Shown: piece by piece, positions 2,058-11,135 of the stretch | Numbering within the stretch: position 1 is the first letter of the stretch | Layout of the letters: each line of letters starts with the position of its first letter | IMG/VR virus record: IMGVR_UViG_3300027963_000225 | Span: 1 to 30,964 of that record | Reading direction: 5' to 3' (one strand) | From: a virus | Length of the DNA stretch: 30,964 nucleotides | The notes under the pieces: model-generated | Told to the model about the DNA's origin: nothing | Database searches by the model: none | Seen by the model: only the letters and a program-made list of their open reading frames with translations | Made by a program: the position numbers and the translations under genes

Positions 2058-2135
2058 ATGACCCTGCCTTGGACGTGTACCGCTATACCGTTCTTGGTGG
2101 GGTTTATTATTTATGAAACATGGAAGTTTATTTAG
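2058..2135 (+). CDS. Possible 25-residue hydrophobic leader peptide
   Basis: ATG 2058 to TAG 2133-2135 encodes a short hydrophobic peptide (core IPFLVGFII). It lies in the leader of the methyltransferase mRNA and overlaps that gene's start by 23 bases in another frame. It could couple or regulate translation of the methyltransferase, or it may be a chance ORF: it is short and no ribosome site is evident. I list it because it fills an otherwise unexplained leader. Confidence 0.25.
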   Translation: MTLPWTCTAIPFLVGFIIYETWKFI

Positions 2136-3126
2136 TGGAATCGGTGGCTTTGATTTAGCTTCCGAGTGGATGGGTTGGGAGAATGTATTTCACTGCGAGT
2201 GGAATGACTTCGGTAAAAAAGTTTTAAAATATTATTGGTCAAAATCAATTAGTTACGATGACATCACAAAAACAGATTTCACTATTCACCGAGGAGGAAT
2301 TGACATCCTCACTGGAGGTTTCCCATGTCAACCCTACTCAACAGCAGGAAAGCGACTTGGAAAGGAAGACGAACGCCATTTATGGCCTGAGATGCTTAGA
2401 GCAATTCGAGAAATTCAACCACGTTGGATTGTGGGCGAAAACGTTCTCGGCCTTGTTAATTGGAATGGAGGGTTGGTATTCGAAGAGGTGCAAACTGACT
2501 TGGAAAATGAAGGGTACGAAGTACAACCGTTTATACTTCCAGCTGTTTCCGTCAACGCACCACACCGACGGGACCGAGTTTGGTTTGTTGCCTACTCCGA
2601 TGGCGCAAGATCGAGCGACAACGGTAGAACAAACAATAAAGAGGAAAGAGAAGTACGGGGGCAAAACAAGGGGAATGTATCTACAAAATTTTGCAGTAAT
2701 GGGGATGCTACCAACACCGACAAGGGTTCAAATGAATTACAAACAAAAAGAGGGTTGGGAATGGACGGGACTTTATTGGAAAAACGAAAAAGGGAAAAAG
2801 AAGCAAACAGATTTAACTGCAACAATCAATCAAATGATTTACCAAGGGATGCTACCAACACCAGTAAAGAGCGATTCAAATGCAAGAAGACCAAGCGAAA
2901 ATTGGAAGGGGGACGATTTAGGTTCATTCATAAACAGGGGGAACAGTGGCAAAATTTCCCAACTGTCTCCCCAATTTGTAATGGAAATGATGGGATTTCC
3001 AACCGATTGGACGGAATTACCTTTTCTAAGTGGAGAAACGAATCAATCAAAGCAGGAGGAAACGCAATAGTGCCTCAGGTTGTTTTACAAATATTCAAAG
3101 CAATAGAACTGTATGAACTTGATTGA
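2113..3126 (+). CDS. DNA (cytosine-5-)-methyltransferase
   Basis: 337 residues carrying the C5-methyltransferase motifs in the usual order. Motif I is GSLFSGIGGFD (residues 4-14, SAM binding). Motif IV is PCQ with the catalytic Cys at about residue 72. Motif VI is ENV (109-111), motif VIII is HRRDRVWF (151-158), and motifs IX/X are WRNESIKAGGNAIVPQVV near the C-terminus. It would methylate C5 of cytosine in phage DNA, probably as protection from host restriction, since no partner endonuclease is seen. The segment between motif VIII and the C-terminal motifs (about 165-295) is unusually polar and low in hydrophobic residues, with two DATNT repeats. That segment also encodes another protein in the next frame, which probably explains its odd composition. 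Confidence 0.95.
   Translation: MKHGSLFSGIGGFDLASEWMGWENVFHCEWNDFGKKVLKYYWSKSISYDDITKTDFTIHRGGIDILTGGFPCQPYSTAGKRLGKEDERHLWPEMLRAIREIQPRWIVGENVLGLVNWNGGLVFEEVQTDLENEGYEVQPFILPAVSVNAPHRRDRVWFVAYSDGARSSDNGRTNNKEEREVRGQNKGNVSTKFCSNGDATNTDKGSNELQTKRGLGMDGTLLEKRKREKEANRFNCNNQSNDLPRDATNTSKERFKCKKTKRKLEGGRFRFIHKQGEQWQNFPTVSPICNGNDGISNRLDGITFSKWRNESIKAGGNAIVPQVVLQIFKAIELYELD
2258..3070 (+). CDS. LPTP-repeat phage protein nested inside the methyltransferase gene
   Basis: 270 residues in the +1 frame relative to the methyltransferase, entirely inside it. The protein looks real rather than like a shadow. It has normal composition, a Trp/Tyr-rich conserved-looking block (residues about 45-95, GLWAKTFSALLIGMEGWYS, then CKLTWK, NRLYFQLFPST), three LPTP motifs (GLLPTP, GMLPTP, GMLPTP) and a C-terminal block LSPQFVMEMMGFPTDWTEL. 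From memory, proteins with these features occur in Bacteroidetes phages beside or overlapping C5-methyltransferases, but I cannot check that here. Function is unknown; it might form or modulate target recognition. ATG 2258 has no obvious ribosome site, so translation may be coupled. Confidence 0.72.
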   Translation: MTSQKQISLFTEEELTSSLEVSHVNPTQQQESDLERKTNAIYGLRCLEQFEKFNHVGLWAKTFSALLIGMEGWYSKRCKLTWKMKGTKYNRLYFQLFPSTHHTDGTEFGLLPTPMAQDRATTVEQTIKRKEKYGGKTRGMYLQNFAVMGMLPTPTRVQMNYKQKEGWEWTGLYWKNEKGKKKQTDLTATINQMIYQGMLPTPVKSDSNARRPSENWKGDDLGSFINRGNSGKISQLSPQFVMEMMGFPTDWTELPFLSGETNQSKQEETQ

Positions 3127-6228: not shown

Positions 6229-7107
6229 ATGGAAACAACTAAGCACGGGCGTAATATCGTATCAATCCGATGCAAAGACGGTGACCAGTTCTTAATGCTA
6301 TCCGATCTTCACTTTGATCACCCGAAATGTAGGCGTGACCTACTTGAAGATCACATCGAGAAAGCCATTAACCTGGGAGCGAAAATCCTGATCAATGGCG
6401 ACTTCTTTTGTATCATGCAAGGAAAGTACGACAAACGTGCGAGCAAAGACGATATTCGTCCAGAGCATCAAGGCGGTAATTACTTTGACTTGGTTGTTAA
6501 CGAGGCAGTTGAATGGTGGGCGAAGTACGCTCACCATTTACTTTTTGTAGGGTACGGTAACCACGAAACCGCAGTGAGTAAACGCCACGAAATAGACCTC
6601 ACCGAGCGGTTCGTTTCTTTGCTGAATTACAAAACGGGAGCAAACGTTCTGAATGGTGGATACGCTGGGTGGATCGTGTTCAACGTACATCGACGGGACG
6701 ATGCTAAAACGTACCTAAACTTCAAAATGAAATACCATCACGGCCACGGGGGAGGTGGGGTAGTAACAAAGGGAGTAATCCAACATCAAAGGATGGGGGC
6801 ACAAGTTGACGGTGCAGACGTTCTTTGGATGGGGCACGTTCACGAACTTTACCACCACATAAATATTAAAGAAGCTTTGCAAGTGGTTGCACCTTACGAA
6901 GTGAAACAACGCATCCAACACGATATCAGAACCTCAACCTACAAAGACGAGTTTACGGACGGAGCTTTCGGTTGGCACATCGAACGGGGTGCGTATGGCA
7001 AACCAATTGGAGGATATTTAATGCGATTGAATTACGTTAGGGATAGGAGAGAAAAAGAGCGTAATTACATCAACCCTGATTTTCAAGCGATTTATTCAAA
7101 CATTTAA
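6229..7107 (+). CDS. Calcineurin-like metallophosphoesterase
   Basis: 292 residues with all metal-binding motifs of the family in order: SDLHFDH (Asp26, His28), GDFF (Asp58), GNHE (Asn111, His112), YHHGHG (170-174) and GHVH (202-205). These bind two metal ions and hydrolyse phosphate esters; related phage enzymes act on DNA ends, RNA or nucleotides, and the substrate here cannot be read from sequence. The length suits a single catalytic domain with a C-terminal extension. Its position, between nuclease-like and SSB-tailed genes, suggests nucleic-acid or nucleotide processing. Confidence 0.9.
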   Translation: METTKHGRNIVSIRCKDGDQFLMLSDLHFDHPKCRRDLLEDHIEKAINLGAKILINGDFFCIMQGKYDKRASKDDIRPEHQGGNYFDLVVNEAVEWWAKYAHHLLFVGYGNHETAVSKRHEIDLTERFVSLLNYKTGANVLNGGYAGWIVFNVHRRDDAKTYLNFKMKYHHGHGGGGVVTKGVIQHQRMGAQVDGADVLWMGHVHELYHHINIKEALQVVAPYEVKQRIQHDIRTSTYKDEFTDGAFGWHIERGAYGKPIGGYLMRLNYVRDRREKERNYINPDFQAIYSNI

Positions 7108-7111
7108 AAAT

Positions 7112-7384
7112 ATGGAAAACGAAAAGTATGTAGGCAAAGGTTGGGCGAACCAGTACGGGGTAAAGGTTCAACTGAAAAAACAAGATTTGCTCGACTTACC
7201 CACCAACCAATACGGGGACATCGAGGTATTTGTAGGACAACGCAAAGAGGTTGACCAAAAGAGCAAAGCAACCCATTGGGTAAAATGGAAGGCGAAAGAT
7301 GCACCCATGCAAGCCCCGAGCGAAATCCACCCCGCACTAACAAAATCAGGTTGGACGCCTGACGATGAAGGGTTACCTTTCTAA
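7112..7384 (+). CDS. Small protein with SSB-like acidic C-terminal tip
   Basis: 90 residues, 4 bases after the phosphoesterase. The N-terminal 60 residues are mixed beta-like with basic and Trp residues (THWVKWKAK). The protein ends in WTPDDEGLPF, very like the acidic DDxxPF tip by which bacterial SSB recruits partners. The usual OB fold is not obvious at this length, so it may be a minimal ssDNA-binding protein or one that competes with host SSB for partners. The tip is seen directly; the function is inference. Confidence 0.7.
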   Translation: MENEKYVGKGWANQYGVKVQLKKQDLLDLPTNQYGDIEVFVGQRKEVDQKSKATHWVKWKAKDAPMQAPSEIHPALTKSGWTPDDEGLPF

Positions 7385-7405
7385 GAAATCCCATTCAATA
7401 AGTAT
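7372..7405 (+). promoter_or_regulatory. Bipartite GTNAC / CCCATTNNATAARTAT motif, copy 1
   Basis: GTTAC 7372-7376, then 13 bases, then CCCATT 7390-7395 and ATAAGTAT 7398-7405, whose last two bases start ATG 7404. It lies before the sigma-like gene and partly inside the end of the SSB-tailed gene. The other copies are at 13458, 20234 and 22439. Proposed as a phage-specific promoter. Confidence 0.55.
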
Positions 7406-9439: not shown

Positions 9440-9630
9440 CCGAGGAAAAACAACCCGACGTAATTGATCAGGCAATTAGTGCGGTGGAGTTGTATGCTTC
9501 CATTGCTAACTTGCTAATGGATATTGCAGAAACTGCCGACCATGTGAGCGTTGGCGGTGCGACCGATTACGAATTAAAGCTTATGTGCATGAATAAGCTA
9601 AAAGAAATCGTTAACAAAATAGAAGTATGA
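9436..9630 (+). CDS. Small hypothetical helical protein
   Basis: 64 residues, coupled on both sides by ATGA overlaps. It is mostly helical and acidic (AISAVELYASIANLLMDIAE), with no recognised motif. It precedes the ParB/methylase fusion and may be an accessory of it, but nothing direct supports this. Confidence 0.65.
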   Translation: MTEEKQPDVIDQAISAVELYASIANLLMDIAETADHVSVGGATDYELKLMCMNKLKEIVNKIEV

Positions 9631-11135
9631 AGATTGAAAAGTGGAAAGTATCGGAGGTTAAAGCGAACCCAAACAATCCAAGGGTAATTAAAGACGATAA
9701 GTTTAAAAAGTTGGTGAAGTCGATTCAGGACTTTCCTGAGATGTTGGAATTACGTCCGATCGTTGTGAATTCTGACGGGATTGTTTTGGGTGGTAACATG
9801 AGATTGAAGGCGTGCAAGGAAGCAGGGTTGAAAGAAGTTCCAGTGATCAAAGCCGAAGACCTAACCGAAGAACAACAAAAGGAGTTTATCATTAAGGACA
9901 ATGTTGGGTTTGGTGAATGGGATTGGGAAGACCTTGCAAGTAATTGGGATGCCGAAGAACTTACGGAGTGGGGATTGGATTTACCGACTGATTCGTTTGT
10001 AGAAATGGAAGCGGTTGAGGATGACTTTGAAGTTTCGGAAGATGGAATTGAAACGGATATTGTGTTGGGTGATTTAATCGAAATAGGTGAGCATCGTTTG
10101 CTTTGTGGGGATAGTACGGATAGCGACCAAGTTGCTCGGTTAATGAATGGGGAAAAAGCTGACATGGCTCACAATGACCCACCTTACGGAATGAAAAAAG
10201 AAAACGAAGGGGTATTAAATGACAATCTAAATTTCAACGATTTACTTGACTTTAATCGTGACTGGATTTCTGTTCAATTTATGCACATTAAAGAAAACGG
10301 AAGTTGGTATTGTTGGGGTATTGATGAACCATTAATGGATATTTATTCAAATATTATTAAGCCGTATGTTTCACAAAACAAAGCAACTTTCAGAAATTTA
10401 TTAACTTGGAATAAAGGTTACGGACAAGGCCAAACAACTGAAAGTTATAGAATGTTCCCAATAGCAGACGAAAAGTGTTTGTTTGTCATGTTGGGAGTTC
10501 AAGGGTTTAATGATAGTGCCGAAAATTATTATGAAGGTTGGGATTCGATTCGGGATTATTTTATTAGTGAAAAAAATAAACTTGGATGGAATATAAGTAA
10601 GATCATCGAAATAACTGGCAAATCTTCTGCCTCGCATTATTTCGCAAAAAGTCAATGGTTTTTCCCAACACGTGAGCACTATGATTCAATGAAAAAAGAA
10701 GCTAATGGGAAAGCATTTTTAAAGGAATACGACGAAATCAAAAAGGAATACGACGAAATCAAAAAGGAATACGACGAAATCAAAAAGGAATTTTATTCAA
10801 CCCGTGCATATTTTAATAATACGCACGATAATATGAACAATGTTTGGAACTTTGAGCGTCACAAAAAAACGGGAATTGAAGGAGGTCATGCAACACCAAA
10901 GCCAATACCATTGTGCGAGCGAGCAATTAAAAGCAGTTGCCCCGATGGTGGTTTAGTTTTGGATTTCTTTTTAGGTTCAGGTTCAACCATGGTAGCATCC
11001 CACCAACTTAAACGTAAATGCTATGGGATGGAACTCGACCCAAAGTATTGCCAAGTCATTATTGACCGCATGAAAAAAATAGACCCATCGTTAACCATTA
11101 AAATAAACGGAGTATGCCAAGTGGAGAAAAACTAA
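9627..11135 (+). CDS. ParB-like domain fused to N6-adenine/N4-cytosine DNA methyltransferase
   Basis: 502 residues. Residues 1-115 are a ParB/Srx-like domain (NPNNPRV, then GIVLGGNMRLKAC), common at the front of phage methylases. The methylase follows: motif IV NDPPYG (183-188), then a long target region, then motif I LDFFLGSGSTMVA (445-456). This order (IV before I) marks the beta class. It transfers methyl groups from SAM to an exocyclic amino group. The centre (about 190-410) has much lower GC than the flanks and includes three tandem KEYDEIK heptads, suggesting a swapped target-recognition domain. No restriction partner is seen, so protection of phage DNA is the likely role. Confidence 0.93.
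   Translation: MKIEKWKVSEVKANPNNPRVIKDDKFKKLVKSIQDFPEMLELRPIVVNSDGIVLGGNMRLKACKEAGLKEVPVIKAEDLTEEQQKEFIIKDNVGFGEWDWEDLASNWDAEELTEWGLDLPTDSFVEMEAVEDDFEVSEDGIETDIVLGDLIEIGEHRLLCGDSTDSDQVARLMNGEKADMAHNDPPYGMKKENEGVLNDNLNFNDLLDFNRDWISVQFMHIKENGSWYCWGIDEPLMDIYSNIIKPYVSQNKATFRNLLTWNKGYGQGQTTESYRMFPIADEKCLFVMLGVQGFNDSAENYYEGWDSIRDYFISEKNKLGWNISKIIEITGKSSASHYFAKSQWFFPTREHYDSMKKEANGKAFLKEYDEIKKEYDEIKKEYDEIKKEFYSTRAYFNNTHDNMNNVWNFERHKKTGIEGGHATPKPIPLCERAIKSSCPDGGLVLDFFLGSGSTMVASHQLKRKCYGMELDPKYCQVIIDRMKKIDPSLTIKINGVCQVEKN
10722..10790 (+). repeat. 21-bp tandem repeat, 3.3 copies, encoding KEYDEIK heptads
   Basis: Three identical 21-base units start at 10722, 10743 and 10764, plus a partial fourth. The period is a multiple of three, so gain or loss of units keeps the frame and would only change the length of a helical spacer in the methylase target region. 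Confidence 0.95.

Follow-up and report, generated by a model that had tools for sequence, protein, structure and literature searches.

Does the 270-codon frame nested within a phage cytosine methyltransferase gene encode a protein, and if so, what does that protein do beside the enzyme whose gene surrounds it? The window, by which we mean the whole stretch of DNA that was analysed (30,964 bases; IMG/VR record IMGVR_UViG_3300027963_000225), is a tailed-phage record in which we found terminase, portal, and tape-measure genes. It also holds another DNA methyltransferase, the N-terminal part of which is ParB-like (9627-11135; phrog_498 and ParB-like families) and, at 7104-7394, two ATG-started open reading frames of 90 and 96 codons that lie on opposite strands and overlap almost completely. 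The locus of interest is on the + strand, as are all of the features described for it below. At 2113-3126 lies a gene for a C5 cytosine methyltransferase of 337 aa, here called alpha (PF00145, 4e-44), which is also matched by TIGR00675 and phrog_363 and has a structural match to the catalytic domain of M.HhaI. Entirely inside it, in the +1 frame relative to alpha, is an open reading frame of 270 aa at 2258-3070, here called beta (phrog_1008, 6e-21). Both were found where a sequence-only reading of the window had placed them.

We collected relatives by scanning IMG/VR with four different betas and by adding annotated records, giving a first set of 294 loci. Alpha was found in 290 of these, and every overlap longer than 200 bases was on the same strand and in the +1 phase. 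Because scans with beta queries select for beta, we repeated them with alpha as the query: A nested beta, always in the +1 phase, was present in 105 of the 106 loci retrieved, the sole exception being a truncated match. Scanning bacterial genomes with a beta profile yielded 80 loci from many phyla, all of them with an overlapping alpha hit (a few of these truncated) and with beta in the +1 phase. Phage-type neighbours, namely helicase, terminase, integrase, recombination, or replication genes, were present at five of the six cellular loci sampled, no restriction endonuclease was recognised at these six among the few genes scanned per locus, and the pair occurs on two Escherichia coli chromosomes, in one case within an apparent P2-like prophage. 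Among C5 loci sampled through Pfam, beta accompanied all eight alpha-type hits (some of them copies) versus none of the 24 canonical genes. Furthermore, in a catalytic-domain tree built by a quick method, one well-supported branch parts monomeric from split genes, and the split alphas form one group, found in phages and prophages of many phyla. In a minority of relatives a stop interrupts one frame; outside the motif IV class described below, these stops may reflect decay, sequencing error, or real variation. Homologues of beta, on which the sequence-only reading had let its case for a second protein depend, extend far beyond close shadows of the methyltransferase, and the two-in-one gene, an old one, occurs widely among phages. 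We found no description of this wide phage distribution in the literature searched, the coverage of which was incomplete. In PHROGs, the beta family phrog_1008 is labelled "DNA methyltransferase," and in annotated records (L084, L085, and L086) one frame or both often appear as partial ORFs or hypothetical proteins.

The two frames share out the conserved motifs of a C5 enzyme. In alpha we located motif I (LFSGIGGFDLA, 2128-2160), motif IV with the catalytic Cys (GGFPCQPYS, 2314-2340; invariant in a 47-row alignment), motif VI (ENVLGL, 2437-2454), and motif VIII (RRDRVWFVA, 2566-2592), and the segment KAGGNAIVPQVV (3049-3084) is motif X by its alignment with the canonical motif, a motif that remains conserved in the alphas of relatives. 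Alpha matches canonical C5 enzymes in motifs I-VIII and X and nowhere else in the alignment. The earlier statement that alpha holds all of the C5 motifs is therefore wrong for motif IX, which lies in the nested frame (QLSPQFVMEMMGFPTDW, 2960-3010). There it is the one credible match between the beta profile and the canonical C5 profile, scoring 26.0 where the best of 60 column shuffles reached 16.6 and covering 22 columns at an E-value of about 0.01 that is modest alone. Of 417 pairs, nearly all have this motif in the beta frame, and one has it in the alpha frame. Two plasmid loci of Ca. Megaera polyxenophila (L088, 2131-3156, and L530, 2131-3153) are informative exceptions that represent a natural frame swap, having motif IX beside motif X in the alpha frame and the LPTP blocks still in the +1 frame.

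Upstream of motif IX, betas mostly contain one to six LPTP-like blocks spaced ~40 residues apart. The beta of the window has the three already noticed in the sequence-only reading (2588-2599, 2708-2719, and 2852-2863), and the 17-bp direct repeat reported there is likewise present: GGGATGCTACCAACACC, with copies at 2702-2718 and 2846-2862, encodes DATNT in alpha and MLPTP in beta. In alpha, residues 164-283 (2602-2961) form a variable linker that is unconserved and mostly predicted to be disordered, the constraint being carried by the beta frame. The structural model of alpha is confident at both ends (the first ~160 and the last 20 residues) and disordered over residues 190-316, and Foldseek pairs it with M.HhaI over ~167 columns, covering the catalytic half only.

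Judged from sequence, the locus very probably encodes one two-subunit C5 methyltransferase in which alpha catalyses and beta gives target recognition and motif IX. Alpha, with motifs I-VIII and X, would catalyse and bind the cofactor, its middle serving only as a linker; beta, translated from its own internal start, would supply the parts that alpha lacks, namely variable recognition modules (the LPTP blocks) and motif IX; and the two would assemble into the active enzyme, the assembly itself, the need for both chains, and the reading of DNA by the LPTP blocks all being presumptive. The role of the LPTP blocks in recognition is guessed from their position and variability. As to origin, the ancestor may plausibly have been monomeric, with a pair of frameshifts shifting its recognition region and motif IX into the +1 frame. 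An earlier guess had made beta a target-recognition partner of its host enzyme, and the presence in beta of variable repeat modules and of the motif missing from alpha supports it for what would still be a putative subunit.

Beta might instead be a separate protein that is no subunit at all, such as a regulator, an inhibitor, or an anti-restriction protein that lies by chance inside the methyltransferase gene. It has no Pfam family and no known structure or function: Searches of beta against Pfam, NCBIfam, PADLOC, and PDB sequences returned nothing of use, the AlphaFold model of beta alone is weak (pLDDT 65), and a fold search with this weak model found no fold. We regard this reading as improbable, however, since beta was never seen without an overlapping alpha, save in truncated or partial matches, and since it carries the motif IX that is absent from alpha.

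The region before the beta start bears on how beta would be made. Counting a ribosome-binding site at 4 or more matches, we find one before the chosen beta start in 62% of Firmicute-type, 64% of Proteobacterial-type, and 55% of cellular loci, against a background of 13-17% at other positions of the same phase. A Lactobacillus group has such a site before beta in 1 of 13 loci, and the window's own group has none before beta and almost none before alpha, which is as expected for Bacteroidota-like hosts but adds no positive support. Were beta made by programmed frameshifting from alpha, the outcome would be a trans-frame fusion enzyme with motifs I-VIII and the motif IX of the next frame joined in one chain. 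This is very unlikely, given that a stop a few codons upstream of the beta start closes the beta frame in most loci, that ribosome-binding sites precede that start, and that the fusion would be without motif X despite its conservation in alpha.

That the +1 frame encodes a real protein, as the sequence-only reading had proposed, is borne out by the length of the open run, by its retention in relatives, and by selection in its own frame. The run comprises 280 codons; when the synonymous codons of alpha were permuted 20,000 times, the run averaged 104 codons and never exceeded 269. The longest open run in the +2 frame of alpha is 38. We compared 122 independent pairs of relatives and obtained, by alpha codon position (1/2/3), substitution rates of.079/.053/.274 for the 5' stretch that alpha has to itself,.087/.044/.192 for the overlap of beta with motifs II-VIII,.313/.212/.258 for the variable region,.142/.047/.117 for the final 35 codons of beta, and.134/.086/.343 for the 3' stretch, again of alpha only. 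In both the variable zone and the final one (motif IX), rates peak at the third beta position, which means that more of the constraint there falls on the beta frame, in agreement with the earlier suggestion that this frame carries the constraint in the shared middle. Relative to doubly silent substitutions, those that change beta and are silent in alpha stand at 0.43, 0.48, and 0.17 over motifs II-VIII, the variable region, and the last 35 beta codons, respectively, and those that change alpha and are silent in beta at 0.13, 0.64, and 0.21, ratios that are approximate because they come from a simple mutation model (transition weight 2) with few doubly silent changes. Substitutions are constrained in both the alpha and the beta frames; changes to beta are not free, the point on which the sequence-only reading had proposed an alignment of homologous loci. 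We conclude that beta is a real gene.

An untranslated shadow of alpha coding is accordingly an extremely unlikely account of beta: Composition tends to keep the +1 frame open, as the shuffled mean indicates, but never to the length observed, selection follows the beta frame where alpha varies, and ribosome-binding sites stand before beta. Least credible of all is a homing endonuclease hidden in the alternative frame, for which one report provides a precedent (an alternative-frame HNH gene in a phage methylase, the ShiLan insertion; PMC11855218), since 0 of 121 betas match HNH or any Pfam family convincingly and alpha contains no removable insertion.

M.EcoHK31I has its small subunit encoded within the gene for the large one, in a different reading frame, and the same holds for M.EaeI; to our knowledge, the only characterised enzyme split in this overlapping way is one little-known bacterial enzyme. 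In M.EcoHK31I, which consists of two polypeptides, the large subunit has motifs I-VIII and X and the small subunit has motif IX (PMC3404938), and the predicted recognition domain was placed in the large subunit (PMC3404938). The motif partition over two polypeptides is thus the same in this YGGCCR enzyme and at our locus, a likeness of described layout. The placement of the recognition domain counts against beta as the recognition subunit, whereas at our locus the middle of the large subunit looks like a linker. M.EcoHK31I moreover belongs to a restriction system, in contrast to a phage gene beside which no restriction partner was recognised. By analogy, and leaving aside homology of the small subunits, we suggest that the locus works like M.EcoHK31I and is a member of the same kind. 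With this two-polypeptide precedent (PMC3404938), and with the arrangement common among phages, dual coding here is only partly the exception that the sequence-only reading had made of it.

Other split and monomeric enzymes are less close in layout or already share it. M.AquI is a C5 enzyme naturally split in two, but its small subunit contains half of the variable region together with motifs IX and X, whereas here motif X is in alpha and the genes overlap. The gp55/gp56 pair of Paenibacillus phage Shelly, already annotated in GenBank, has the same nested arrangement and homologous proteins, with identity to those of the window of only about 29-34%; the product of gp56 is named DNA methyltransferase, and the accompanying note adds nothing beyond the gene being internal ("g55 internal gene"). 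The monomeric C5 enzymes M.HhaI and M.HaeIII share the catalytic domain fold and motifs and, unlike alpha, unite these with the recognition region and motif IX in a single chain; none of the 24 monomeric genes sampled has a nested beta.

We further find that some relatives carry an insertion just before the catalytic Cys, which the alpha of the window does not have. In 46 distinct alpha-type genes of 342 examined, a set enriched by a targeted scan, 6 bases are inserted exactly between FP and CQ of motif IV, always as a stop (TAA in 27, TGA in 13, and TAG in 6) followed by CTN, CCN, or TCN and never by TTN, and no other insertion lengths up to six codons were seen. The loci are 53 of L531-L596, together with L071, L073, L077, L167, L428, L438, L448, and L476; an untargeted alpha scan found the insertion in 4 of 80 loci, and a widened scan added one more case. 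All cases come from metagenome contigs, and the pattern was found in 0 of 396 Bacteroidota genomes. On a tree made by a quick method, with several gappy or long-branched rows, the trait needs 11 changes. Downstream of the stop alpha is open and under constraint, the third-position excess persisting in 15 pairs. Code reassignment was not found, the insertion contigs reading well in the standard code with all three stops in use, and neither suppressor tRNAs nor downstream RNA structure was found in these contigs. At one locus (L607, reverse strand, 6713-6738), the insertion is TAACCA, and the beta frame is closed there and seemingly begins further downstream; this one case argues against the insertion being kept for the sake of beta.

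A 2016 review knew of no natural in-frame stop hop (PMC5009743). Tentatively, and with more doubt than confidence, we suggest that alpha is made in these relatives through a natural in-frame stop hop at CCN-stop-YYN: A proline tRNA would hop over the stop, so that these nine bases yield one proline and the chain reads GGFPCQP. Readthrough, regulated termination, or recurrent inactivation are possible explanations of the insertion as well. If true, the stop hop would be a natural in-frame case, and one that concerns the family of the window and not the window itself.

No restriction enzyme was recognised among the window proteins scanned, which cover part of the window, and with none recognised near alpha the enzyme likely protects phage DNA against host restriction. 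Long dual coding on one strand is generally taken to be rare, and yet nested frames look like the standard design for a large class of phage methyltransferases, probably of a single origin, that are entered in databases as single genes or mislabelled fragments. Split methyltransferases have already been used to engineer targeted methylation, and this class offers varied natural ones with an apparently modular recognition subunit. It also provides hundreds of natural replicates for measuring the selection shared between two proteins on one sequence.
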